Shown: positions 1,709-13,827 of the stretch, piece by piece | How the letters are laid out: each line of letters opens with the position of its first letter | How positions within the stretch are numbered: the stretch's first letter is position 1 | NCBI GenBank assembly: GCA_020073085.1 | Contig: JAIQFV010000014.1 | Coordinates: 62,001 to 126,000 of the forward strand | DNA: 64,000 nucleotides | Origin: Terriglobia bacterium | Lineage (GTDB): Bacteria > Acidobacteriota > Terriglobia > JAIQFV01 | Direction of reading: 5' to 3' | Notes under the pieces: model-generated | The model's input: only the letters and a program-made list of their open reading frames with translations | Databases searched by the model: none | Told to the model about the DNA's origin: nothing | Program-made: the position numbers and the translations under genes

Positions 1709-2680
1709 CTAACGCGGAGGGCTCTCTGCGTTCTCAAAGAATTCCAGAAATTGACTGAGGATGAGTTCCTTGGAAAGGCGGGAGGGAAGCAGGATTCCCT
1801 GGTCGTCAGTCAGGGCAAGACGGGGGTAAAGGACGGCGAGGGAGTCGAATCGCCATCGCGCGTCGGTCCGGTCCTCCCTTCCATTCAATCGGTTCACAAG
1901 GGGTGCCAGGTCAATTCGCGGTCGCTTGGAGAGGGTCTTGGTTTCAAACCAGGTGACGATATGATAAAAGAACTCGCAGCGCAACCCGTCCTCACCTTCC
2001 AGAAAGGTTAATAGCCGGTCGTGCCGGCACGCATTGAAGCGCGACGTCAATGGAAATACTTCACGCGCTTCCATCACCGAGAGGCCGGCCTCCGGGTACT
2101 CATGAAGGGTGGCCGCTCCCCCCGCCAGGGCGCTTCGCGCCGCGGCGAGCCTGGCAAATTCCTCCTCATACAGTTCCCGGTAACGAGTCTGAAAGGTATT
2201 AAAAAGACCCGGGAGTTCGCCCAGCAGGGTTTCATAAATCAGTTGGTACTTCTGCGTTTCATCGAGCTTTATAAAATGTGCCCTTAAAGGGGAACGTTGA
2301 GGATCTTCAAAGGCGGAAACGACCAGATCGAACTGAACGGCCGCGGGAGTGGTAAACCAGCCGAAATCTCCCGCTTCAGCAGCGCGGATCAAGAACTCCT
2401 TGTGAGGAAGCGCCGCATGAGGATGCATCGCGGTCCAGCAGGACAGCAGTCCGTCGGTGTCGAAATGATTATTGCTGACAAATTCGATGTTCTCGAAAAG
2501 GCGATCAGCGTAAGGGTCGACGGCGAGATTAAGCGCAATCTCTGTGGAGGTGTCGGCCTTCAGATGTTCAGGAGTCTGGTTGTTGGGCCAATGACTGAGA
2601 TTAACACGACATTCCTCAACGCCATCAACCACCATGGTGTGCGATGGATTGATCCCGCTATGATAGAAGAGAAACTTCAT
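1709..2680 (-). CDS. Conserved hypothetical protein with an HFDTDG motif
   Basis: A soluble 323-residue protein without signal peptide or membrane segment. I do not recognise its function. The most distinctive stretch is [16 protein letters not shown] near residues 67-82. Its N-H-x-D-x-D-G pattern is reminiscent of metal-binding motifs of DHH-type phosphoesterases, but the remaining DHH motifs are not evident. It may belong to an uncharacterised DUF family (DUF6687 is a guess from memory). AAGGA six bases before ATG supports the start at 2680. It lies about 150 bases upstream of mqnD on the same strand, so co-transcription is possible. Confidence 0.6.
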
Positions 2681-2995
2681 GGGCCATCCTTCAAATACAG
2701 TTGAGTTCGGTTTGAGTGCATGAGTAGAGGAGGATGAGTCGCCTCGCCCTGCATGACTTCTAAAAAACGACTTACTAGCACGAGCCTGCCACCATCACCA
2801 TCCTACAACAAAAAAGCTTCCCGCATTGGATATCATGTACTGCGCTTGATGTACCGGATTCGAATCCCTTCTTGGAAGAGGATAACGCGGAAAAACTCTC
2901 CCCGGCGTAAATATTCTTTCCGTTACAAATTTGACAATTACCGTTATGAATAACGAAAACCGTTAACCGCAAAAGATCCCCGCCGTTCGTCAATC

Positions 2996-3012
2996 GTCAC
3001 AAATTGTATGAC
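2996..3012. promoter_or_regulatory. Inverted-repeat operator candidate GTCA-N9-TGAC
   Basis: GTCACAAATTGTATGAC has symmetrical GTCA/TGAC ends and a CACAAATTGT core, which is itself a palindrome. It lies 9 bases upstream of the sigma-54 promoter at 3022. The core recurs at 7651-7660, and shorter-spaced versions occur at 3115 and 5326. It may be the binding site of a regulator of the fibre genes. Confidence 0.5.
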
Positions 3013-3021
3013 TTGGTCTTT

Positions 3022-3037
3022 TGGCACCCCATTTGCC
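3022..3037 (+). promoter_or_regulatory. Sigma-54 (RpoN) promoter for the fibre-subunit genes
   Basis: TGGCACCCCATTTGCC matches the -24/-12 consensus TGGCACG-N4-TTGCW with GG at 3023-3024 and GC at 3035-3036, the obligatory spacing. Transcription should start near 3048-3050, leaving a leader of about 260 bases before the first subunit gene. Sigma-54 promoters need an AAA+ activator; none is encoded in the window. Confidence 0.75.
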
Positions 3038-3114
3038 AATGAGTCTCTGTTGATTTTATTGGAGGAATCAACGTGTGCTCATCTCTGGTCCCGGAAACAA
3101 GACCTATGGGGCTC

Positions 3115-3128
3115 GTCACAATTCTGAC
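3115..3128. promoter_or_regulatory. Operator-like palindrome GTCACAATTCTGAC
   Basis: GTCA-N6-TGAC, in the leader of the first cassette and downstream of the predicted sigma-54 start site. It differs by one base from the element at 5326-5339 in front of the second cassette. The near-identity of two separate copies, each ahead of an equivalent gene, is what argues for function. Confidence 0.5.
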
Positions 3129-3306
3129 ACACCTTTGAAATATTTTTGTTAAGTGTCTGATGTAAAAAATGACATGTACGATGCGAAAGGGAATGACGAT
3201 GAAGCGGCAGAAGCAAATGAAGACGGGATCAACAAGAAGGTTGATTCATAGTTCCTCTCATAAATCCGGTCTACCAGTGACCCATAAACTGGGAAAGGAA
3301 AATGAA

Positions 3307-3819
3307 ATGAAAAACAATTGGAAAGCTCTTTTGACTTGCACTGCAGTTGTGGCACTGGTCCTCTTGATGGGAACTTCGACCTTCGCCGCAAACGTCACTC
3401 AAACCCTGACCATCAATGCCACGGTGGCCGCCCGGGCGGAATTAACGCTGGCTCCGGCGACGATCAGTTTTGCCGACGCCAGTCCGGCGACCACGCCGAG
3501 CATCACGGCCAATTCCCCGGTCACCGTGACGGCGAATGTGCGCACTGCAAAAGCATCGACAGCAACTCTGACGGCTCTGGCTGGCACCGATCTCACCTCA
3601 GGGACGGATACCATTCCGATTACAGCCGTCACTTGGACAGCGTCAGCGTTGCCGTTTATTGCGGGGACCATGAGCCATACCTCCGCGCAAAGTGGTGCGA
3701 CGTTCAGCGCAGGCAGCGGTTCTTATAGCGGGACATACACTTTCACGTTGGCCAATAGCTGGAATTATAACGTCGGCGCTTATGCCGCGACAGTGACTTA
3801 TACATTGACCGCTCCATAA
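3307..3819 (+). CDS. Small secreted beta-sandwich protein, fibre-subunit candidate A
   Basis: A 170-residue protein with a signal peptide (MKNNWKALL..., hydrophobic core, cleavage near TFA-AN) and a Thr/Ala/Ser-rich mature part without cysteine. The mature domain runs from TLTINATVAARAELTLAP through ISFADASP, VTVTANVRT, LTSGTDTIPI and WTAS to the end strand AATVTYTLTAP. Alternating polar/hydrophobic strands suggest one Ig-like domain. It is one of six paralogues in this cluster and pairs most closely with protein D at 5688. The start at 3307 has GGAAAGGA upstream. An overlapping longer frame to 3169 is probably not used. A role as fibre subunit is inferred from the chaperone and barrel genes downstream; spore-coat-U or DUF4402-like proteins are the nearest families I can think of. 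Confidence 0.8.
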   Translation: MKNNWKALLTCTAVVALVLLMGTSTFAANVTQTLTINATVAARAELTLAPATISFADASPATTPSITANSPVTVTANVRTAKASTATLTALAGTDLTSGTDTIPITAVTWTASALPFIAGTMSHTSAQSGATFSAGSGSYSGTYTFTLANSWNYNVGAYAATVTYTLTAP

Positions 3820-3895
3820 AAGATATCTTCCAGGTTTTACCGGCGGCCGGATTTGAATCGGAATGATCTTAACCAAACGAATCTCGGAGGACATC

Positions 3896-4408
3896 ATGAA
3901 ACAATCTTATAAGACCTTGTTGAGCTTCGGGGCGGTGGCGTTGATGGTCCTGTTCATCAGCTCCTCAGTTTTTGCCGCATCGAGCCCAGCCACCCTCACA
4001 ATCAACGCGACCGTTGCGGCCCGGGCCGAGTTAGTGCTGGCGCCGACGACGATCAACTTTGCAGACGCGAGTCCGACCACGACCGCTTCCGTTCCTGCAG
4101 ATAACCCCGTGGCTGTGACCGCGAGGATCCGTACTGGGAGAGCGACTGCAGCAACGCTAACAGTTACCTCCGCTGCAGATTTGACCGCAGGCACGGACAC
4201 CATTCCGATCAGCAATGTCAGTTGGACCGCCTCCGGCGCGCCTTTTATCGCCGGGACCATGAACAAGGCAACGCCGCAAAGTGCCGCGACCTTCGCTAAC
4301 GGCAGTGGATTGTTCGGCGGGACGTTCAATTTTTTCCTGGCCAATAGCTGGACCTACAATACCGGCGCTTACACAGCAACGGTTACCTATACATTGACCG
4401 CCCCATAA
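3896..4408 (+). CDS. Small secreted beta-sandwich protein, fibre-subunit candidate B
   Basis: A 170-residue paralogue of A with signal peptide (MKQSYKTLLSFGAVALMVL..., cleavage near VFA-AS). The mature domain has the same blocks: TLTINATVAARAELVLAP, INFADASP, VAVTARIRTG, LTAGTDTIPIS, WTASGAPFIAGTMNK and the closing TATVTYTLTAP. No cysteines. Shared details (ELVLxPTTINFAD, ADNPVxVTARxRTGxATAATLTV, GxFNFxLAN) make it the counterpart of E at 6253 rather than of A. CGGAGG seven bases upstream supports the start. It follows A by 76 bases, most likely in the same transcript. Confidence 0.8.
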   Translation: MKQSYKTLLSFGAVALMVLFISSSVFAASSPATLTINATVAARAELVLAPTTINFADASPTTTASVPADNPVAVTARIRTGRATAATLTVTSAADLTAGTDTIPISNVSWTASGAPFIAGTMNKATPQSAATFANGSGLFGGTFNFFLANSWTYNTGAYTATVTYTLTAP

Positions 4409-4437
4409 AGGCGGCTGCGGCTGGCTTCGATAGAGAC

Positions 4438-4472
4438 AGCAGCGGGACGATTGCAGAAACGCTCCCGCTGCT
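4438..4472 (+). terminator. Intercistronic hairpin before cysteine-containing subunit C
   Basis: AGCAGCGGGA at 4438-4447 pairs perfectly with TCCCGCTGCT at 4463-4472. There is no clear U-run, so it may be a leaky terminator or a 3'-end protecting stem between B and C. An equivalent stem with a T-run sits at 6794-6828 in the second cassette. Confidence 0.6.
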
Positions 4473-4517
4473 CCATCTATCACTCTTAAGAGATGCGCGC
4501 CTGAGAGGAAGACGCCC

Positions 4518-5069
4518 ATGAGACCCGATAGGCAGAACAAGCCAGAACCAAAGGGGATGGGCAGGTTCAAGCAGCAGACGATCGCGGGAATGGTGATCGC
4601 GATCGCCCTGCTGATTGCGAGTCCACTTTCCCAAGCCCAGACCTTGTCTCTGAACGTGAATCCCAGTTCGATTAGTTTCGCGGATCAAAATCCTACTAAC
4701 TTCCCCAGTATCTCGGCGAGCGCGATCGTGCAGGTGCAAGTCACCGCTTCCTGGGGCAATGGGACCTGGTCGGTCACAAGCCTGGCTGGCGGCGATCTCT
4801 TAAACTCCGACGGGAGAAGCGTGATTCCAATTTCCAATATGCGCTGGACCGCTTCGCGGGCCAGCGGCAGCTGCTCCGGGGGATGTACTTGCATGGGGGG
4901 GACAGCCAGTAAATCGAGCCCGCAACATATCCTCAACGGGAGTGGCTATACCGGGTTCCTTGGATTTGGTAGTTATACCTGCAATGTTAACTTCACACTC
5001 GTGAATGACTGGAGTTACAACACGGGGTCCTATTCCCAATCGCTCACGGTCACCGCGGCAAATCCGTAA
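4518..5069 (+). CDS. Cysteine-containing secreted paralogue, fibre-subunit candidate C
   Basis: A 183-residue secreted protein with a longer basic N-terminus and a signal peptide ending near SQAQT. The domain follows the same plan as A and B: ISFADQNPT, VQVQVTASW, then a nearly equivalent IPISNMRWTAS block and VNDWSYNTGSYSQSLTV at the end. It differs by four cysteines (SCSGGCTC around residues 117-124 and YTCNV further on), which could form disulphides in the periplasm. It is the counterpart of F at 6860. GAGAGGAA before ATG supports the start. Placement behind a hairpin suggests lower expression than A and B, fitting a tip, base or adaptor subunit; this is inference. Confidence 0.75.
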   Translation: MRPDRQNKPEPKGMGRFKQQTIAGMVIAIALLIASPLSQAQTLSLNVNPSSISFADQNPTNFPSISASAIVQVQVTASWGNGTWSVTSLAGGDLLNSDGRSVIPISNMRWTASRASGSCSGGCTCMGGTASKSSPQHILNGSGYTGFLGFGSYTCNVNFTLVNDWSYNTGSYSQSLTVTAANP

Positions 5070-5687
5070 ACGGATTCCCCGGAGTTGTCCTTGGGTTCGA
5101 GAGATCCGATTGGATTGGGTGTCTCGCGGTTTTCTGTGGGGGATCCCGGTCCTCTCTGATCCTTATTCCTTGTCGCCATTCGACAACCCCATATTGACTT
5201 AATCTAAACGCGCTTTTCCCAGTCCCTTACTTGGGGGGCTAAGATGTCTTCATTTTGATGATGAGTGCTGCCATTTAAACCATCCCTAAAGTGATCTCTA
5301 GCACCTCGTCGCTTGGCCCAAAATCGTCACAATTTTGACATCCCTTCCTCAGAAGTTACAACTCCTCCCTTTCCTTTCAAGTTCTGAAATGTCACAAAAA
5401 TGTTAATTTATGACCTTTAGTTAGAAAGGCTTAGATCGTCGGACCCCAATGAAATCAGGGTCTCTTGAAGGGTCTACTCTCCGGCCCTATCCATCCCCAA
5501 GGAATCTCCCTACCGTCACATTTTTGTCATATGAAAGTTGTAAAACATGACTGTGATTATCGAGAGGGGTTTAACAGTGGACTTGACAGAGCAAAATTCG
5601 ACAAAGCAAGCGGTGATCAGCAAGTCCAGTGTTAAGCCCCTTGATGAGTCCGAGAAAAAACAAATTTCATTCAAACAAGAGGAAAAC
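5070..5687. other. Long leader between the two subunit cassettes
   Basis: This 618-base gap holds several GTCACA elements (5326, 5391, 5515) and AT-rich stretches, and looks like a duplicated regulatory leader. An open frame from 5547 is continuous with gene D, but its first 47 residues are hydrophilic and resemble no paralogue, so I treat them as untranslated. Confidence 0.5.
5326..5339. promoter_or_regulatory. Operator-like palindrome GTCACAATTTTGAC before the second cassette
   Basis: GTCA-N6-TGAC, one base different from the element at 3115-3128. Further GTCACA half-sites occur at 5391 and 5515 in the same leader. I could not find a convincing -24/-12 promoter in this gap, so the second cassette may have another promoter type or be read from the first. 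Confidence 0.45.
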
Positions 5688-6206
5688 ATGAAAACCAATT
5701 CGAGTCCCGCCAGGAAGATCTTTACAATTCTTGCTGTGATGGGGGTGGCAGCCATGATGACCGGCTCCACACTTTTTGCGGCCACACAAACCTTAACCAT
5801 CAATGCTACGGTATCCGCTCGTGCGGAGTTGACACTATCCCCTTCAACGATCAATTTTGTGGATTCAAGTCCCACTGGCACGCCAACCATCACCGCTAAC
5901 TCCACGGTGGCCGTGACGGCCAACGTGCGGACAGCGGCAAACAGCAAAGCGACGCTCCTGGCGGCAGTGAGTGGAGACCTGATGTCGGGGACTGACTCCA
6001 TCCCCGCGAGCAATGTCAGTTGGACCGCTTCGGCGGGTCCATTCATTGCCGGAACCTTGAACAAGACCACGGCGCAGAGTGCGGCCAATTTTGCAAACGG
6101 GAGCGGGTCGTACAACGGAGTTTACACTTTTACCCTGGTCAACAGCTGGACCTACAACACAGGGAGTTATGCGGCGACGGTGACCTACACCCTGACCGCT
6201 CCATAG
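5688..6206 (+). CDS. Small secreted beta-sandwich protein, fibre-subunit candidate D
   Basis: A 172-residue paralogue with signal peptide (MKTNSSPARKIFTILAVMGV..., cleavage near LFA-AT), no cysteine and the common blocks TLTINATVSARAELTLSP, INFVDSSP, VAVTANVRT, SGTDSIP, WTAS and AATVTYTLTAP. TPTITANS and GSYNGVYTFTL match A (TPSITANS, GSYSGTYTFTL), so D opens the second copy of the cassette. AGAGGAAAAC precedes the ATG at 5688, a better start than 5547, because the other paralogues also begin directly with the signal peptide. Role inferred as for A. Confidence 0.8.
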   Translation: MKTNSSPARKIFTILAVMGVAAMMTGSTLFAATQTLTINATVSARAELTLSPSTINFVDSSPTGTPTITANSTVAVTANVRTAANSKATLLAAVSGDLMSGTDSIPASNVSWTASAGPFIAGTLNKTTAQSAANFANGSGSYNGVYTFTLVNSWTYNTGSYAATVTYTLTAP

Positions 6207-6252
6207 ATTTTAGCTTTCAAAACTTGAACAAATAATCCTTATGGAGACCAAC

Positions 6253-6765
6253 ATGAAGAACTTTTGGAAGACCCTGATAACGATTACAGTAATTGCCGGC
6301 GCCGCGCTCATCCTGAGCACTGCAGCTTTCGCTGCATCCGACAGCAAGACGCTGACCATCAATGCCACCATTTCGGCTCGCGCCGAGCTGGTGCTTTCGC
6401 CCACGACGATCAACTTCGCTGATAACAGTCCGACGTCGGTAGCTTCCGTTGCCGCCGACAACCCCGTCTCGGTGACCGCCAGGGTACGCACGGGAAAAGC
6501 GACCGCAGCGACATTGACGGTTGCTTCCCCTACCGATCTGACTTCGGGTTCGGATACCATTCCGATCAGTGCAGTGAGTTGGACCGCGACCGGCGCGCCA
6601 TTCATCGCCGGGGCGATGAACAAAACGACCGCCCAGAGCGCGGCGACCTTTGCCAATGGCAGCGGTTCGTTCACCGGCTCATTTAATTTTGTCCTGGCGA
6701 ATACCTGGGCTTACAATACCGGGAGCTATACGGCCAACGTTACGTATACGCTGACCGCCCCCTAG
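6253..6765 (+). CDS. Small secreted beta-sandwich protein, fibre-subunit candidate E
   Basis: A 170-residue paralogue with signal peptide (MKNFWKTLITITVIAGA..., cleavage near AFA-AS) and no cysteine. It shares with B the ELVLSPTTINFAD, ADNPVSVTARVRTG and FNFVLANTW stretches, and ends in TYTLTAP. An ATG at 6241 is in frame, but GGAG six bases before the ATG at 6253 and the paralogue N-termini favour 6253. Only 46 bases separate it from D, so the two should be co-transcribed. Confidence 0.8.
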   Translation: MKNFWKTLITITVIAGAALILSTAAFAASDSKTLTINATISARAELVLSPTTINFADNSPTSVASVAADNPVSVTARVRTGKATAATLTVASPTDLTSGSDTIPISAVSWTATGAPFIAGAMNKTTAQSAATFANGSGSFTGSFNFVLANTWAYNTGSYTANVTYTLTAP

Positions 6766-6793
6766 TTCTCCTGCTGCGGGTTCGGTGATGTGC

Positions 6794-6837
6794 GGACAGC
6801 GGGATGGTGATGACCTCCCCCGCTGTCCCGGTTTTTT
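6794..6837 (+). terminator. Hairpin plus T-run before cysteine-containing subunit F
   Basis: GGACAGCGGG (6794-6803) pairs perfectly with CCCGCTGTCC (6819-6828), followed by a T-run at 6832-6837. This is a proper intrinsic-terminator shape inside the putative operon, so it probably acts as an attenuator that lowers transcription of F relative to D and E. Its position matches the hairpin at 4438-4472. Confidence 0.7.
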
Positions 6838-6859
6838 CGAAGGAAAGATAGGTCAAGCG

Positions 6860-7372
6860 ATGCTAAAAAAGACGGAAACAAAAATTTTGATGGGGATCGC
6901 GGTTCTGGCGGCGGTCTGCATGTGGGGTTCGCCGTCTTACGCTGCAGTTAATTTCACGCTCACGATAACTCCGTCCACCATCAGTTTTCCTGATGCCAAT
7001 CCAACCACGACGGCCCAGATTCCAGCCAACTCCTCAGTGGCGATAAAAGTGACGACGAGTTATGCGACTAACACGAATTGGTCGGTTCACTTTTTGGCCA
7101 ATGGCGATCTGAGGAATAGTGTTGGCACGAGCACGATTCCCATCGCCAACATCACTTGGACTGCAACGCTAACCGGGAATTCCTGTCTGCAAGGTTGCAG
7201 CTGCGTGGCAGGGACCATGAGCTCGACGGCCGCACAGGATGTGATTCGAGGGCGCGGGAACACTCCTACGAACGGTTTCAATTGCAATACCAATTTTCTG
7301 CTGAAGAACCAGTGGGGTTACATCACAGGCTCATACACTCAGACGATTACTGTGGTCACCGCATCGCCATAA
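6860..7372 (+). CDS. Cysteine-containing secreted paralogue, fibre-subunit candidate F
   Basis: A 170-residue secreted protein (signal peptide MLKKTETKILMGIAVLAAV..., cleavage near SYA-AV). It has ISFPDANPTT, the IPIANITWTA block, SCLQGCSCVAGTMS and NCNTNFLL, ending in GSYTQTITVVTASP. The four cysteines sit where those of C sit, making F its counterpart in the second cassette. The start follows AGGTCAAGCG. An in-frame start at 6785 lies inside the preceding hairpin region and is unlikely. It is the last subunit gene before a 720-base gap and the chaperone gene. Confidence 0.75.
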   Translation: MLKKTETKILMGIAVLAAVCMWGSPSYAAVNFTLTITPSTISFPDANPTTTAQIPANSSVAIKVTTSYATNTNWSVHFLANGDLRNSVGTSTIPIANITWTATLTGNSCLQGCSCVAGTMSSTAAQDVIRGRGNTPTNGFNCNTNFLLKNQWGYITGSYTQTITVVTASP

Positions 7373-8092
7373 ACACCTCCCCTCTGCCCCGGGGCCCTGA
7401 GAAATGCGGGTATCCGTGAGGGTGAGGCCTTTGAAGTTCGCGTATGTCCTCCGTTCGATTGTTGAAGAGCAAGCGCAGAGAAATGATTCGGCCGGCCCAA
7501 GCGATGAACCGTTCTGTGATGATTTTCCGCCCACTCCCCTCACCCCCTGTCGCCTCGTTTGTCTGACCCAGAGCTTGATCGGCAAGGTTTCTTTTTCACG
7601 GTTTTCTTGGTTCACCTTCAGGGGGTTAACAAATTACCAGAGGGAAGAGCCACAAATTGTCAATGATGGAATCTCACGGAATTCCCTTAATGTGCTCAAA
7701 AAGAAAGAGATGTTCGATTGGAGGGTGGTTTGCATATGCATATAGGATGGTCTGCATTGGGTTAATGTCCCGCCATCCAAAGGATTGTAACCGGCCGTGG
7801 CCGGGTCCCTCGATTGAGCTGAGGCGAAGCGGGCGTCCCAGATAAGACTTTTCGCTTCAGGATAGACCTTTTCGTTGCCAGGTGGGTTTTGAAATCTCGC
7901 TTCCTACCAGCGCCGCACGCTCTGCTGCAAAAAATTCTGCAACCTCCAGTGGATGTTAAAGTTTTGAGACACTTTTTTCGGACAATGCAGCGTAGTGAAA
8001 GTGGCAGGATCGGAAGTGGAAAGAGGTAAGTCGAGTTGAATAAAGAAATCAAGGGGATCCAGGGAAGTTCAAGCAGGGATAAGGAAGGAAAG
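7373..8092. other. Long gap between subunits and chaperone, with a possible second sigma-54 promoter
   Basis: No convincing gene: the frames here have no signal peptide, no family motif and poor start signals. CACAAATTGT at 7651-7660 repeats the core of the element at 2996. TGGAGGGTGGTTTGCA at 7719-7734 keeps GG and GC of a -24/-12 promoter at the right spacing, but three of the intervening consensus bases differ. It may drive the chaperone and barrel genes separately. Confidence 0.4.
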
Positions 8093-8974
8093 ATGCAAGG
8101 AAGAGAAACAAAGAAAAGCAGAGGGGGACGGCAAGGGGCCTCGGTGGCCGGGCTGTCAGGGCTACTGCTGGTGGCCGCTATGATCTTCGGATCAGGAATC
8201 ACCCTTCGTGCGGATGTCGCCATCGGGGTCTTCCCGATCCGCGCGGAGCATGAGGTTCAGGCGGGACAGACCAAGACCGACGGGATCACGGTCGACAATG
8301 ACTCGGCAGAAAACATTCATATGCGCGTCACGGTGGCGGATTGGTATCTCACACGCGATGGAAACCCCACCTTCGTGAAAAAGGGCAAGTCTCCCGAGTT
8401 CTCGATGAGCGAATGGATTGTGGTGAATCCCGCAGAATTCGTCGTGCCTCCTCACGGTCATCAGATCATCCGTTACACGTTCACGGTTCCCAAGGATACC
8501 CCCGACGGTGGATATCACACAGCCATCATGATTGAGTCGGTTCCCAATATTGCGCCGGGACAAGACGCGCATGCCGCTTACTTGAACGCCCGGGTTGGCG
8601 CCATTATTTACGACCGCGTGGGAAAGACCACGCCGCAGGGAACCATCACCGCTCAGCAGGTGGTGATTGACCAGAAAGACACGGGCCAGGTGGGAGTCCA
8701 GATCACTTTGAAGAACAGCGGTTCCTCTCATTTCCGATTCAAGGGAGAAAGCAAGATCATCGACAAACAGGGAAAGGTGATTGAGACCCTGCCGATCAAT
8801 GACTCCGTGGTCCTCCCCCAGTCGGAACGGGACGTTTTCGTCCCGGTCAAAGGAATCCTTCCCACCGACGGATTTACGATTGTCAGCAGCCTGGACATTG
8901 GACTGAAAGAACTGCTCGAAGCAGAGACCCGAGTGGAGCCGAATCCTTCAAGTCAGCCGGAAGTGAAAAAGTAA
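8093..8974 (+). CDS. Periplasmic PapD/DUF916-like chaperone
   Basis: A 293-residue protein with a basic N-terminus and signal peptide (RGGRQGASVAGLSGLLLV..., cleavage near LRA-DV), then two predicted Ig-like domains. The first carries a PapD/DUF916-style pattern: a hydrophobic strand, VNPAEFVVPPHGHQIIRYTF and PKDTPDGGYHTAIMI. The second runs from about VGVQITLKNSGSSHFRF to the end. In pilus chaperones the first domain donates a strand to the subunit; that function is inferred. AAGGAAGG before ATG supports 8093; an alternative TTG start at 8036 is preceded by GAGG. It is followed after 9 bases by the barrel gene, so the two are one operon. WxL-interacting proteins of Gram-positives are the other family it recalls. 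Confidence 0.7.
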   Translation: MQGRETKKSRGGRQGASVAGLSGLLLVAAMIFGSGITLRADVAIGVFPIRAEHEVQAGQTKTDGITVDNDSAENIHMRVTVADWYLTRDGNPTFVKKGKSPEFSMSEWIVVNPAEFVVPPHGHQIIRYTFTVPKDTPDGGYHTAIMIESVPNIAPGQDAHAAYLNARVGAIIYDRVGKTTPQGTITAQQVVIDQKDTGQVGVQITLKNSGSSHFRFKGESKIIDKQGKVIETLPINDSVVLPQSERDVFVPVKGILPTDGFTIVSSLDIGLKELLEAETRVEPNPSSQPEVKK

Positions 8975-8983
8975 ATTCTTACA

Positions 8984-11900
8984 ATGACGACCAACGGAAA
9001 GACCTCATCACAGTCGCGGCGCCGGACGCCAGGATTCATTTGCGCCGCGGTTATGGTGTGCCTCCTTTTGGCCCCGGCTCAGGTCCTTCGAGGTGAAGAG
9101 GCCGGCGGCGCCACAGTCCAGTTCCAGTTCAATAACAATGCCACCGGCGCGACTTCCAGTATCCTCAACAACCCGCTCTTCTCCCTGGCGATTCCAGGAT
9201 ATACGAATGCGGATCTGAGGGTGGACACCTACCAGTTCATTCCGAATTGGGGCCTGCTGAAAACCTCTTTCGACGTGGCCAACACCAACGACTCTCTCCG
9301 TCCCAGCCGGGGAATGCTTGAATTGTCGGACTATCATCTTGGAGAATGGAAGTTTGATATTGCGGCAGGGGACCAGCCCTTCGCCGCTTACAACATCGAC
9401 TTTGGGTTGAATTCCCTGTTTAACCCGTTTGCCTATCTGCGCGGTGGGCGAGTGACCACCTCGACCGACCACGTGTCGTTTACGGTTTTTGGAGGGCGCA
9501 CCGCCGCGATGAATGGGTTTTTCGGCGAGTCGCTGCGTCTGAGCGAAGAAAGTATCATGGGAGCCCGTGGGGTGTTCACTCCCTCGTCGAAATTGAAGAT
9601 CGGTGCCAGTCTGGTCCACACCAGCGCCCCGGAGAACTCCACCGACCAAATGATTCCTCAGTCCGATACCATGGCGACGTTGGATGTGCTGTACCAGCTG
9701 AATCCCCATGTTCAATTTCTGGGAGAATCTTCGCTTTCCAAATTTTCCGGCTCCCCCGACACCGAGCATCGCGACGGAATGGATCTCTCCTATCTGTTTG
9801 GCACCAAGATCAAGGGCGTGCGGGGCAGTGCGGAAGTCACCTGGCAGAGGATGGGGCCCAATTATCTTCCGCTCAACTTCTTCAATCTGGGAGATCGCGA
9901 AGGACTCTTCAGCTCCGCGGATTATCAGGTGAATCACAAGCTGTCTTTGTACGGGGCGTTCAATCGTTTCCACACCAATCTGCTCGATTCTCACACCCAG
10001 ACCGGACTTCAAGTCAACAACCAGTTCATCGGGGCTCGGTATGTTTTGCTCCCTCACAGCACCCTTAATATTCGTGTAGGGAACGCCGGGGTCGAATCCA
10101 GCGCGTTCAGTCCCAATTTTGTTTCCACTCACAGCCACACCCTGGACCTCGAGTTCCTTCAACAGTTTCGAGCCTGGCGGTTCCTGGCGCGTTACATGGA
10201 CAGCCGCGACCTTGATTTCACCACCGCTTTCCAGCACAGCTTGCGCCAGCGGGTGGAGTTCGAGGTGCGCAGGACGTGGAAGAACGGGACCAACCTCTGG
10301 GTCTCCGGTGGCACGCTGCGCGAGGCGCAGCAGCAGGTGGAGGACAACAAACACTTGAGCCTGGTGGGAAGCGCCGGATTCACCTGGAACGTGCGACCCA
10401 CTTTGTCGTTCTATTCGGAGCTGAACTGGAACCAGGATGTGGCCGTGGTGCGGACCTCGAGCTTCAACAACACTTCATTAAACAGCGGCGTGAGTTGGGC
10501 GCTCCCCCACGGAGTCCAGTTTTCGGTGAACGGCCAGTACAACCGCTCCAGCAACAAGATCAACCTCCTGGACTTCTACACGCTGTCTCCCGACAATGTC
10601 AGCGACCTCCAGAACCTCCTGCTCAACCAGCAGCTCAACCGGTACCAGTTCACCTTTAGGATCCAGAAGACCTTCCGGTGGGGAGAGCGCCCTCAGGAAA
10701 TCCTGCTCAGAGAATCAGGCGCTTCGGCGCTGGCGGGCCGACCTCATGATTTTGGAAACATCGCGGGACTGGTCTTTAACGACCTCGACCGGAACAGTCT
10801 GAAGGACAACAAGGAAACGGGCGTTTCCAACGTTACGGTCGTTCTTGACAAGCGGGTGAAAGCTTCGGTGGATGAGCAGGGCCGGTTTGAATTCAAGAAT
10901 GTCCCGGTCGGAAAGCACACCGTGGAGTTGGATCTGCTCACCCTGCCGGCGACCTTCGACGCCGGGGCCAATACCCGGGTGGCTGTCAACGTCGCGAAAC
11001 GCGCGACCGCCGATGTTCAGTTTCCGCTGTTGGAACTCGGAAAGGTTTCGGGAAAGGTCGTCCTCGTGAACGGGATGGACTCCAATGGTCTTCGTAAGGA
11101 AATTGGAGAAAGCAAAGTCCCTGAACTGCCGGGGACGAGTATCATCATCCTCCTGAATGAGACTTACAAGGTAACCTTTACCGATGGGGACGGAGAGTTC
11201 GAGTTCAGCAACATCCCGAGCGGTGAGTACCGCGTCCGCATCGATCGCGGCACGCTGCCCGAGTTCTCTTCAGTCGATTCCGAGGAAGTGCAAGTGGTTC
11301 GAATTGCACCCGGCGAGAAGCTCTCCAACCTAAAGTTTGTGGTCAAGCTCAATCCTCGCCCGAATCGCCGTCTCCTGGTGGCGTCCCAGACCATGCCGCA
11401 ACCTCCGAAGGCGGAGCCTGACACAACCGCCGTCGTCAACTCCGGGGCGAGAAAACGAGTCCGGTCTGAAGTGGCACAGAATGGAAAGTCGCCCGCAGAG
11501 AATCGCACTGGGAAAGCGACCTCAAGTGTTTCGGCGCTCGCGGGCGGCAATGGACCCACTCTCGAAGACATCGATCGGTGGTCGAAATCAGCGCAAAACG
11601 GGATCGTGATCCATAAGGTCCGGACCGGGGAAACCCTCGAGATTCTGGCGCTGAAGTACTACCAGACGAAAACGAAATGGACGCTGATCTTCAATGCCAA
11701 CAAGGATCAGATCGGCGCCTCCAAGAAATTGCAGCCCGGCCAGGAGTTGAAGATCCCGGTGGAGCCGGAGCCGGTCTCGAGACTGAATAGGACGACAGGT
11801 CATGGCCCCGCAAGGGTTCACGTGGTCCAGCCGGGAGAAACACTCGGAAGTCTCTCCATGCGATATTACAAGACCGAGACCAAGTGGAACCTGATCTATG

Positions 11901-12103
11901 AAGCGAACAAGGCGCAACTGGCCGCTTCCAAGATTCTTCGTGTCGGACAGAAAATAACGATCCCTGTCGACCCCGAATTGGCGAAGGCGGTGGCTCCTGA
12001 TAAGAATGTGAACACCTCGAGTACTCTGGGAGCGTCCTCCGCCGACTCTTCCGCTGCCCCCGCGCCCTCGCCCGGCACCGGGAACGATCCCCCCTCGCAC
12101 TGA
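8984..12103 (+). CDS. Usher-like outer-membrane barrel with Ig-like and LysM domains
   Basis: A 1039-residue protein. After a signal peptide (about residues 1-38), residues 45 to about 570 are rich in alternating aromatic/polar strands typical of a large beta-barrel. At about 592 an SdrD-B/carboxypeptidase-regulatory-like domain begins (IAGLVFNDLDRNSLKDNKE), followed by a second one to about 790 (FTDGDGEFEFSNIPSGEYRV). A low-complexity linker leads to two LysM domains at about 873-929 and 944-998 (VRTGETLEILALKYYQ and VQPGETLGSLSMRYYK), which normally bind peptidoglycan. Classical ushers have a barrel with Ig-like end domains but no LysM; I see no clear FimD N-terminal domain. Context with a chaperone and six small subunits suggests subunit export. 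An unrelated porin-type function cannot be excluded. Confidence 0.65.
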   Translation: MTTNGKTSSQSRRRTPGFICAAVMVCLLLAPAQVLRGEEAGGATVQFQFNNNATGATSSILNNPLFSLAIPGYTNADLRVDTYQFIPNWGLLKTSFDVANTNDSLRPSRGMLELSDYHLGEWKFDIAAGDQPFAAYNIDFGLNSLFNPFAYLRGGRVTTSTDHVSFTVFGGRTAAMNGFFGESLRLSEESIMGARGVFTPSSKLKIGASLVHTSAPENSTDQMIPQSDTMATLDVLYQLNPHVQFLGESSLSKFSGSPDTEHRDGMDLSYLFGTKIKGVRGSAEVTWQRMGPNYLPLNFFNLGDREGLFSSADYQVNHKLSLYGAFNRFHTNLLDSHTQTGLQVNNQFIGARYVLLPHSTLNIRVGNAGVESSAFSPNFVSTHSHTLDLEFLQQFRAWRFLARYMDSRDLDFTTAFQHSLRQRVEFEVRRTWKNGTNLWVSGGTLREAQQQVEDNKHLSLVGSAGFTWNVRPTLSFYSELNWNQDVAVVRTSSFNNTSLNSGVSWALPHGVQFSVNGQYNRSSNKINLLDFYTLSPDNVSDLQNLLLNQQLNRYQFTFRIQKTFRWGERPQEILLRESGASALAGRPHDFGNIAGLVFNDLDRNSLKDNKETGVSNVTVVLDKRVKASVDEQGRFEFKNVPVGKHTVELDLLTLPATFDAGANTRVAVNVAKRATADVQFPLLELGKVSGKVVLVNGMDSNGLRKEIGESKVPELPGTSIIILLNETYKVTFTDGDGEFEFSNIPSGEYRVRIDRGTLPEFSSVDSEEVQVVRIAPGEKLSNLKFVVKLNPRPNRRLLVASQTMPQPPKAEPDTTAVVNSGARKRVRSEVAQNGKSPAENRTGKATSSVSALAGGNGPTLEDIDRWSKSAQNGIVIHKVRTGETLEILALKYYQTKTKWTLIFNANKDQIGASKKLQPGQELKIPVEPEPVSRLNRTTGHGPARVHVVQPGETLGSLSMRYYKTETKWNLIYEANKAQLAASKILRVGQKITIPVDPELAKAVAPDKNVNTSSTLGASSADSSAAPAPSPGTGNDPPSH

Positions 12104-12109
12104 AGAAGA

Positions 12110-12550
12110 TCACCTGCTTCTCTGATTGACGGATCGGCGATATCCGTTTTCCCATCTACAGCCTTTCCATTCCCGAACGAAAAGAGAAAGGCTCTTTCCA
12201 TCTTTAGTGACCTGGGTTTGCTTCCAGCTTCCGACCTGCACGGCTTGATCGCCATTCACCCAGATCTTCATATCCGGATTGAAATCAAAGGCCGAAATCG
12301 TGAAGTTCGTCACGGCCGCCGTCCATACGCGCTTGAGGCGCGGAAATCCCACCAGGGGTCCTTCATTGATGTCGTAATAGATGTTGCTGGGATCCTTATC
12401 GAAAATTTCATCGAGAATCGAGAGATCCTTGGCCACAATGGCCCCGGTAAACTTCTTCGTTTTCTCCTGGATGGCCTGTTCCGGATCTTGCCCAAAGGCT
12501 GGGAGAGCCACGAGCATCACCAAAAGTACTGTGAAGCATGTCTTCCTCAT
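12110..12550 (-). CDS. Secreted NTF2/SnoaL-like (DUF4440-type) protein
   Basis: A 146-residue protein with a signal peptide (MRKTCFTVLLVMLVALPAFG-Q) and a cone-shaped NTF2-like domain. It begins with a helix EQAIQEKTKKFTGAIVAKD, followed by LDEIFDKDPSNIYYDINEG and strands ending at VGSWKQTQVTKDGKSLSLFVREW. The last 18 residues (from KGCRW) do not look like the usual final strand. A neighbouring frame does not repair it clearly, so a late frameshift is possible but unproven. GGAGGT four bases from the ATG gives a strong start. It is convergent with the usher-like gene, with six bases between them. Ligand or reaction unknown. Confidence 0.7.
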   Translation of the reverse strand: MRKTCFTVLLVMLVALPAFGQDPEQAIQEKTKKFTGAIVAKDLSILDEIFDKDPSNIYYDINEGPLVGFPRLKRVWTAAVTNFTISAFDFNPDMKIWVNGDQAVQVGSWKQTQVTKDGKSLSLFVREWKGCRWENGYRRSVNQRSR

Positions 12551-12582
12551 GTTGACCTCCAGATCAAAGGGATTTCAAGAAT

Positions 12583-13827
12583 CTAAGGGGTGGCCTCTGG
12601 AGACTCTCCCGAGCGCTTCAAGGCCCACACGATTTCTTCAATAACGTCCGGGTCGTCTTCTCTTTGTTGTTGAACCCGCACCGCCTCGATTCCTTCGACG
12701 GTGCCGATTTCGCTCAGGGCCCAAACGGCGTGTTGCCGGACCAGGGGCTCTGGATGAGAGAGCGCCCGAGCAAGAACCGGAACCGCTTCGGCCGAATGGC
12801 TGTTTCCAAGGGCGACGGCGACATTGCGCAGGAAGCCTGCATATCGGGCACGCTGGATGGGGCTCTCTTTGAAACGGCGGTTGAATTCTTCCTGGGTCAG
12901 GGTCAAGAGCTCTGCCAGCCGCGGGGTGAGATTGCCGGCGGCGGGTCGGAAGTGCGGATCCGCAGTCGGCACGGCGAACCGGTTCCAAGGGCACACTTCC
13001 TGGCAGTCGTCACAACCGAAGATGCGGTTACCGACGAGACGACGAAACTCGCGGGGAATGGGGCCCCGCAGTTCGATGGTCAGGTAAGAAATACACCTTC
13101 GGGAATCAACCACGAAGGGGGCGACAATGGCGCGTGTTGGACAGGCTTCCAGACACCGTGTGCAGGTCCCACAGAAGGTTTTCTTGGTGCTGTCTGCCTG
13201 AGACCGCTGCTGCCGGGCAGAGTCTGATCTGGGTTCTGCCCTTCTGCCCACCCTGGAGGGACCGATGGCTGGGTGTTGGAACGGCGGATCGTAAGCGCTC
13301 TCCTCAAACGAGTGCGTCGAGAGTATCTCTCCCACAAAAATCCAGGAGCCGATCTCCGTGGTGATCAAATTTGCGTTCTTGCCGATCCATCCGATCCCGG
13401 CGCGCTCGGCCCACCATTTGTCGAGTACTGGACCGGTGTCTACATAGGACAGAAATGAGGCACGGGGGAGAAGGGACGAGACAAACGTTTCAAGTTCGCT
13501 CAGCTTCTGTTTTACAGTGAGGTGGTAGTCTCGCCCCCACGCATAGCGCGAAATGACGCCGGTGTCGCTGTCGCCTCTGTTGTTTTCCGGGGAATAGTAG
13601 TTGATGAGGACGGAAAGGACCGACCGGGCATTTTCCAGGACAACCCGCGGATCGATGCGCCTCTCCGGCGCGCGGCTCATGTACTTCATCCCGCCTTGAA
13701 ACCCGTCTTCCAGCCATTTGAGAAATCGCTGCTGCGAGAGCGCATCGATGGGCTCCGCCCGTGTGATGCCGCATTTGAAGAAACCAAGCTCTCTTGCCCG
13801 GGTCTTTATTTGTTGCGAAATGCTCAC
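12583..13827 (-). CDS. queG: Epoxyqueuosine reductase QueG with C-terminal HEAT repeats
   Basis: QueG reduces epoxyqueuosine to queuosine in tRNA using cobalamin and two 4Fe-4S clusters. Visible are the N-terminal cobalamin-binding part (DTGPVLDKWWAERAGIGWIG, IGKNANLIT), ferredoxin-type cysteines CGTCTRCLEACPTRAI, a C in SRRCISYL, FGCDDCQEVCPWN, and HEAT-like helices from about residue 340 (RNVAVALGNS, VRQHAVWALSEIG). Between the catalytic domain and the first cluster motif there is a hydrophilic insert of about 30 residues (from FQHPAIGPSRV) that I do not recall from the family. The start appears to be GTG at 13827 without a clear Shine-Dalgarno sequence. It lies about 120 bases downstream of the CysO-MoeZ fusion on the same strand. 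Confidence 0.92.
   Translation of the reverse strand: MSISQQIKTRARELGFFKCGITRAEPIDALSQQRFLKWLEDGFQGGMKYMSRAPERRIDPRVVLENARSVLSVLINYYSPENNRGDSDTGVISRYAWGRDYHLTVKQKLSELETFVSSLLPRASFLSYVDTGPVLDKWWAERAGIGWIGKNANLITTEIGSWIFVGEILSTHSFEESAYDPPFQHPAIGPSRVGRRAEPRSDSARQQRSQADSTKKTFCGTCTRCLEACPTRAIVAPFVVDSRRCISYLTIELRGPIPREFRRLVGNRIFGCDDCQEVCPWNRFAVPTADPHFRPAAGNLTPRLAELLTLTQEEFNRRFKESPIQRARYAGFLRNVAVALGNSHSAEAVPVLARALSHPEPLVRQHAVWALSEIGTVEGIEAVRVQQQREDDPDVIEEIVWALKRSGESPEATP

Follow-up and report, generated by a model that had tools for sequence, protein, structure and literature searches.

We analyzed a window of 64,000 nucleotides (nt) from a soil Terriglobia bacterium of the Acidobacteriota (GenBank assembly GCA_020073085.1, contig JAIQFV010000014.1, positions 62,001 to 126,000). 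A check of its open reading frames (ORFs) showed six small genes, here called A to F, on the plus strand between positions 3307 and 7372, in the order A-B-C and then D-E-F, followed by genes for a chaperone-like protein and a predicted outer-membrane barrel protein (Table 1). Each of the six encodes about 170 to 183 residues with a signal-peptide-like N terminus; A, B, D, and E are of a long type with an N-terminal extension, and C and F are of a short type without one. A preliminary description of this DNA had regarded the six genes as a tandemly duplicated three-gene cassette, pairing A with D, B with E, and C with F by shared motifs. These motifs were present letter for letter: TPSITANS/TPTITANS and GSYSGTYTFTL/GSYNGVYTFTL in A/D, ELVLAPTTINFAD/ELVLSPTTINFAD and ADNPVAVTARIRTG/ADNPVSVTARVRTG in B/E, and four cysteines at aligned positions in C and F. 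Order and strand also agreed between the sets as described, but the spacing was similar rather than identical (A-B, 76 nt versus D-E, 46 nt; B-C, 109 nt versus E-F, 94 nt). A search of the whole 5.79-Mb genome returned A to F as the only matches of any strength, a seventh at an E value of 0.1 being noise. The reading frames of A and D stay open further upstream, but these stretches, considered as N-terminal extensions, were rejected: a GGAAA resembling a ribosome site lies just before 3307 and 5688, and locus identities show lower conservation for the leader than for the gene, which counts against the longer ORFs. An alternative GTG start at 6785 is possible for F.

Table 1. Positions of genes and noncoding features in the window and of the long subunits in the related genome G002
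Feature	Position	Strand	Remarks
Box upstream of set 1	3115..3129		GTCACAATTCTGACA; pattern twice in genome; conserved in congener
A, secreted long-type subunit with N-terminal extension	3307..3819	+	Pilin-like fold model, residues 1-15 without strand
B, long-type subunit	3896..4408	+	Groups with E in tree
Stem-loop, B-C gap	4438..4472	+	10-bp arms AGCAGCGGGA / TCCCGCTGCT
C, short-type subunit without N-terminal extension	4518..5069	+	Four Cys; proposed tip
Box upstream of set 2	5326..5340		GTCACAATTTTGACA; pattern twice in genome; kept in congener
D, long-type subunit	5688..6206	+	ORF and motifs
E, long-type subunit	6253..6765	+	ORF, motifs, tree
Stem-loop, E-F gap	6794..6828	+	10-bp arms GGACAGCGGG / CCCGCTGTCC, then CGGTTTTTT
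F, short-type subunit	6860..7372	+	Four Cys; proposed tip of second set
Periplasmic chaperone-like protein	8093..8974	+	WxLIP_PGBD sub-threshold; ORF open from 8036
Usher-like outer-membrane protein	8984..12103	+	Predicted 26-strand barrel, two beta domains (SdrD_B/CarboxypepD_reg), two LysM
Long subunits of G002	L017:11924-12433 and 12526-13035	-	82% mature identity

Mature identity across the sets was 78% for B-E, 70% for A-D, and 48% for C-F, and within the sets it was 66% for A-B, 63% for D-E, and 42% for A-C. In a 24-row tree, which included rows from outside the Acidobacteriota, B and E formed a clade with support of 100/100, and C and F formed one with 82/63; A grouped with A of the congeneric genome G001 and D with D of that genome, each at 100. 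The pairing expected of the six proteins was therefore clear for B/E and weak for C/F. The preliminary description had set against its own proposal a tree with A beside B and D beside E within each cassette, and that arrangement was itself rejected in the approximately unbiased (AU) test (A+B clade, p-AU 0.0068; D+E clade, p-AU 0.00058). Trees of the nine long subunits alone, built from DNA and from protein, were mutually consistent and grouped the two long subunits of the same-family genome G002 (87/95 for DNA and 63/75 for protein). These two are 82% identical in the mature part, closer to each other than to any other, possibly through gene conversion or a lineage-specific duplication, either of which clouds one-to-one orthology of the subunits.

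Among 61 genomes searched as relatives, the genome under study included, the subunit family was found in three: this genome, G001, and G002. The three loci are syntenic, with VitK2_biosynth and DUF6687 genes, the subunits, a chaperone-like gene, a barrel gene, and an ORF equivalent to positions 12583-13827 of the window. G001 carries A-C and D-E-F, with B missing. G002 (locus L017) carries one set in the order long, long, short, which is compatible both with loss of one set and with there never having been two. Between the congeners, F is less conserved than the other subunits (70% versus 83 to 93% mature identity).

Noncoding marks accompany both sets. A 15-nt box with the pattern GTCACAATTNTGACA occurs at exactly two places in the genome, before A (3115) and before D (5326), and both boxes are kept in G001. 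With up to three mismatches allowed, G002 has no box within 710 nt upstream of its first gene, and none was found in positions 8093-64000 of the window. Apart from the box, the DNA upstream of A and of D gave no alignment above shuffled sequences; since the whole spacers of the two sets are alike only in the box, the spacers themselves do not show a recent duplication. Before D (5547-5610), a leader stretch of about 60 nt hardly differs between the window and the congener and is better conserved than much of its surroundings; it could be a regulatory leader.

A GC-rich stem-loop with the common core CAGCGG lies between the last long gene and the short gene. Strict pairing extends over 10 bp in both the B-C and the E-F gap and over 9 bp in the A-C gap of G001 and the B-C gap of G002, and none of the four gaps between long genes exceeds 6 bp. 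Compared with shuffled sequences, the hairpin energies were modest, with z scores of -2.0 and -1.05. Only one place in the genome, the B-C gap, has the exact core pair CAGCGGGA...TCCCGCTG, which is therefore not a dispersed repeat; an Rfam scan of positions 2000-9500 found no known RNA. Intercistronic hairpins can set pilin ratios. A term search of the review PMC11316696 found no passage on this role. The gap between F and the chaperone gene (7373-8092) is 720 nt long, its counterpart in the congener is 506 nt, and in the single-set genome G002 the gap between the short gene C' and the chaperone ORF is near 30 nt.

We then compared the distribution of the three components. Among 396 sampled Acidobacteriota genomes, the chaperone was found in 26 (E≤1e-6) and the subunit family in 14; barrel matches (E≤1e-15) occurred in 29, with 14 covering the barrel and 15 the C-terminal domains only. 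The 14 genomes with subunits are the 14 with a full barrel and are also 14 of the 26 with the chaperone. A scan of contigs in GTDB gave 21 loci with the chaperone, mostly from Aminicenantes and other Acidobacteriota. All 21 hold subunits together with the chaperone, and the barrel is present in 20 (the contig of L086 ends before it). That the proteins act as a functional set, as had been suggested, is well supported, and a concrete role can be proposed, that of fibre subunits plus a tip. In the Aminicenantes-type loci (L072-L086 and L088), the first subunit, where present, is divergent (for example, L075:8621-9157), and its profile match stops early in most.

The fold of subunit A was modeled with AlphaFold2 from the mature protein and 63 aligned rows. 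The model had a mean predicted local distance difference test score (pLDDT) of 91.5, with residues 1-15 free of strand and a first core strand at residues 16-22. A Foldseek search of the PDB gave four matches at E≤0.001, all of them CfaB of CFA/I pili; the next rows held CfaB, the PapG pilin domain, FimG, PapA, Caf1, and Csu, mixed with integrins. VIA placed the TLP-1a and TLP-1b filaments at the top and CfaE next, with middling Z scores. Subunit sequence profiles gave only noise against the PDB, no BFVD structure matched by fold at E≤0.001, and a PHROGs scan gave nothing usable, its match at 0.004 spanning 46 residues and being set aside.

According to passages of PMC3960871, donor strands are N-terminal extensions of 10 to 20 residues with alternating hydrophobic residues, borne by an incomplete immunoglobulin-like (Ig-like) fold, and all type 1 and P pilins but the tip adhesin carry one. 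By sequence and prediction, A has such an extension, its N-terminal stretch T-L-T-I-N-A-T-V showing alternating hydrophobic residues, and C and F have none. The latter begin directly at the first core strand, with 14 to 15 residues before the anchor Phe versus 28 in A, B, and E; the script value of 35 for D reflects a misplaced cleavage. The signal-peptide heuristic misplaced cleavages in several proteins (WIN_5544, which is D, L075_11416, L076_1745, L078_11409, L088_10736, L088_11295, L072_8569, and L075_8621, among others), and long and short types were assigned by eye from the aligned N termini plus the profile start. Across the 21 loci, 19 have one short subunit, the congener locus L070 is the only one with two (one per set), and in L086 the sole candidate is cut by the contig end; each complete single-set locus has exactly one subunit without the extension. 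A subunit that lacks an extension could not be added to a growing chain, and we therefore interpret C and F as probable tip subunits; A, B, D, and E would be fibre subunits, the modeled fold of A resembling CFA/I and type 1 pilins.

The chaperone-like protein of the window scored 26.8 bits against the Pfam family WxLIP_PGBD (PF06030), below the cut-off of 27.3, and its relatives scored lower. Against the PDB, the family profile matched EfmWxLIP1 over both domains (E value, 0.006), and the profile of a relative's chaperone gave no match. The remote relative L064 passes PapD_N (26.5 bits versus a cut-off of 23) and matched the chaperone family profile at 98.3% over 179 columns in a profile comparison. 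The window protein itself has no PapD_N sequence match, and its genome has no PF00345 match. The protein ends in a hydrophilic tail. In L077, two chaperone-like genes (9941-10768 and 11749-12546) flank two subunits.

The model of the barrel protein, made for residues 25-800 with 21 sequences, places 26 strands between model residues 17 and 542, followed by two beta domains. The barrel begins at model residue 17, and the longest gap between its strands is 27 residues, so the model leaves no room for an N-terminal domain (NTD) or a plug of the size these have in FimD. All of Foldseek rows 1 to 11 were FimD or PapC (E values, 1e-17 to 2e-13), and VIA aligned the barrel to FimD from residue 137 with a Z of 17.1. 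Passages of PMC8410936 describe the usher as having five domains, namely, the NTD, a 24-strand barrel, a plug, and the C-terminal domains CTD1 and CTD2. This layout was not found; what is predicted is a barrel of 26 strands with two C-terminal beta domains and with neither NTD nor plug. The LysM tail is present in three Terriglobia proteins and absent from the other seven aligned, and the related barrel protein L059:8455-11610 ends in a SPOR domain rather than LysM, a second type of peptidoglycan-binding tail.

Gene content, the pattern of duplication, the predicted folds, the division of subunits by extension, the hairpins, the boxes, and the co-occurrence of the components form the direct basis of our interpretation. 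We consider it probable that these genes specify a divergent, chaperone-usher-like system for making surface fibres, in which the subunit set was duplicated as a unit along with its upstream box and internal hairpin. From this we infer donor-strand exchange, a tip role, attenuation, and a shared machine with two fibres. Subunits would leave the inner membrane by means of their signal peptides, and the downstream chaperone would cap each incomplete Ig-like subunit. The resulting complexes would dock on the C-terminal beta domains of the barrel protein, which would export the fibre; in this fibre the free N-terminal strand of each A, B, D, or E would complete the preceding subunit. C and F could donate no strand and would occupy only the first position, the distal tip, and the hairpin that separates the long genes from the short one may lower tip expression relative to the shaft. 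One chaperone and one barrel would serve both sets, each set having its own upstream box, and the cell could thus build two fibres or a mixed one. More tentatively, the locus may represent a minimal, gate-less chaperone-usher lineage of the Acidobacteriota, with an usher that is tethered to peptidoglycan by LysM and has no recruiting domain or plug, a chaperone intermediate between PapD and WxLIP, and one machine for two separately controlled fibres.

Several results weigh against the interpretation of the locus as a fibre system duplicated as a unit. With regard to the duplication, an A+D clade was neither recovered nor rejected in the 24-row tree (p-AU 0.253), and the long-subunit trees were likewise undecided on A/D (p 0.128 for DNA and 0.141 for protein). 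Of the five hairpins, that in the E-F gap of G001 has no strict stem of 9 bp, the RNAfold stem there using G-U pairs, and hairpin energies differed only modestly from those of shuffled sequences (z, -1.0 to -3.8). The subunits might instead have multiplied singly in tandem, their order being kept by chance or selection. Such a history would suit the lack of an A+D clade, the likeness of the two long subunits of G002, and the otherwise unalignable noncoding DNA of the two sets, but the matching order of six genes, the full support for B/E, the rejection of A+B and D+E, the same rare box, and the same hairpin core at a nearly equal offset all argue against it, and we regard it as unlikely. Duplication of the whole unit, as the preliminary description proposed, is favored by the tree rejections, the B/E clade, the single-set relative, the two-set congener, the box, and the hairpin, and is weakened by the A/D pair and by the low support for C/F. 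We conclude that the duplication is real and most likely involved the whole unit.

With regard to the fibre, no Pfam or NCBIfam family fits A to F and no pilin model matched them; the fold matches of A reach E values only near 1e-4 and template modeling (TM) scores near 0.5, and VIA Z scores do not clearly separate the pilins from other Ig-like folds. The barrel model is moderate (pLDDT, 76.3; predicted TM score, 0.55), its TM-scores to FimD and PapC are low (0.32 to 0.38 by query length), and FimD is tied by VIA Z with porins and AlgE (17.1 versus 16.5 to 16.9). The usher family PF00577 matched none of 11 barrel proteins (the window protein and 10 relatives) and nothing in the genome under study, with an E. 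coli control positive. The usual recruiting domain and gate also appear to be absent, which leaves recruitment of complexes and avoidance of leakage unexplained. The strongest doubts concern the moderate quality of the barrel model, its Z scores being tied between FimD and porins, the A/D question, and the reliance of the reading on genes and predictions. A different arrangement would have a porin- or exporter-like barrel and secreted Ig-like proteins of a surface or S-layer type, which undergo no donor-strand exchange and are held on the peptidoglycan by a WxLIP-like scaffold as in Gram-positive WxL clusters. It draws on EfmWxLIP1 as the best solved match of the chaperone, the near-threshold WxLIP_PGBD score, the VIA tie, the LysM domains of the barrel protein, and the lack of a Pfam usher match. 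However, Pfam holds a WxL model and A to F do not match it at E≤1, the best subunit fold matches are polymerizing pilins, in Foldseek the E values of ushers are better than those of porins by many orders of magnitude, and every subunit type of a set except one has a free extension, the hallmark of chained subunits; this arrangement therefore seems improbable to us. It would in part involve the same mechanism, since WxLIP is predicted to complete the WxL beta-sandwich with a strand, according to passages of PMC10599100. It is also possible, if not what we expect, that duplication and fibre are both real and that the six subunits form one heteropolymer, the second set serving variety or dosage. 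The single chaperone gene and single barrel gene at the locus and the lack of PF00577 or PF00345 matches elsewhere in the genome agree with this, whereas two tip-type genes and two upstream boxes fit more naturally with two fibres under separate control.

Although they match no Pfam or NCBIfam family, the subunits belong to a conserved system, being accompanied by chaperone and barrel in all 14 of the 396 sampled genomes that carry them. Should the barrel be an usher, it would reveal dispensable usher domains and offer a natural minimal form in which the need for plug and NTD can be tested, and duplicated sets with one machine would make it simple to ask, in a natural setting, whether the choice of fibre depends on subunit identity alone. 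The match between chaperone and WxLIP suggests a common origin of two strand-donating systems that have been studied apart; the minimal, gate-less lineage, if real, would unite the chaperones of pili and the WxLIP proteins in a single strand-donating family. We did not find the system described in the open-access literature, subscription journals and bioRxiv lying outside that search.

Among known systems, the TLP-1a and TLP-1b filaments (PDB 9ikj and 9ikk), known here by entry title, with no paper on them found, are the top VIA matches of A (Z 9.0 and 8.9, 138/143 residues) and differ from it in being longer, with 17% identity. The WxL/WxLIP (DUF916-DUF3324) clusters resemble the locus in the chaperone, by its profile match to EfmWxLIP1 and its 26.8 bits for WxLIP_PGBD. 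Unlike these clusters, the locus encodes an outer-membrane barrel, its chaperone has a hydrophilic tail instead of the transmembrane helix described for WxLIP, and its subunits are not WxL proteins by Pfam; Acidobacteriota are diderm, unlike the Gram-positive WxL hosts. Chaperone-usher pili, both alternate (CFA/I) and of the type 1 and P kinds with FimD and PapC, differ from the system in that here PF00577 is not matched, the window chaperone has no PapD_N match, the barrel combines 26 predicted strands with a LysM tail and lacks NTD and plug, the tip candidate is a single domain, and two subunit sets would share one machine. They resemble it in the predicted incomplete Ig-like subunits with a free N-terminal extension, in one extension-less subunit per set, and in a putative periplasmic chaperone and a large predicted outer-membrane barrel with two C-terminal beta domains, all in one cluster. 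Since two defining features of ushers were looked for and not found, we do not file the system as a member of the chaperone-usher family, but its anatomy is like that of the chaperone-usher pathway.

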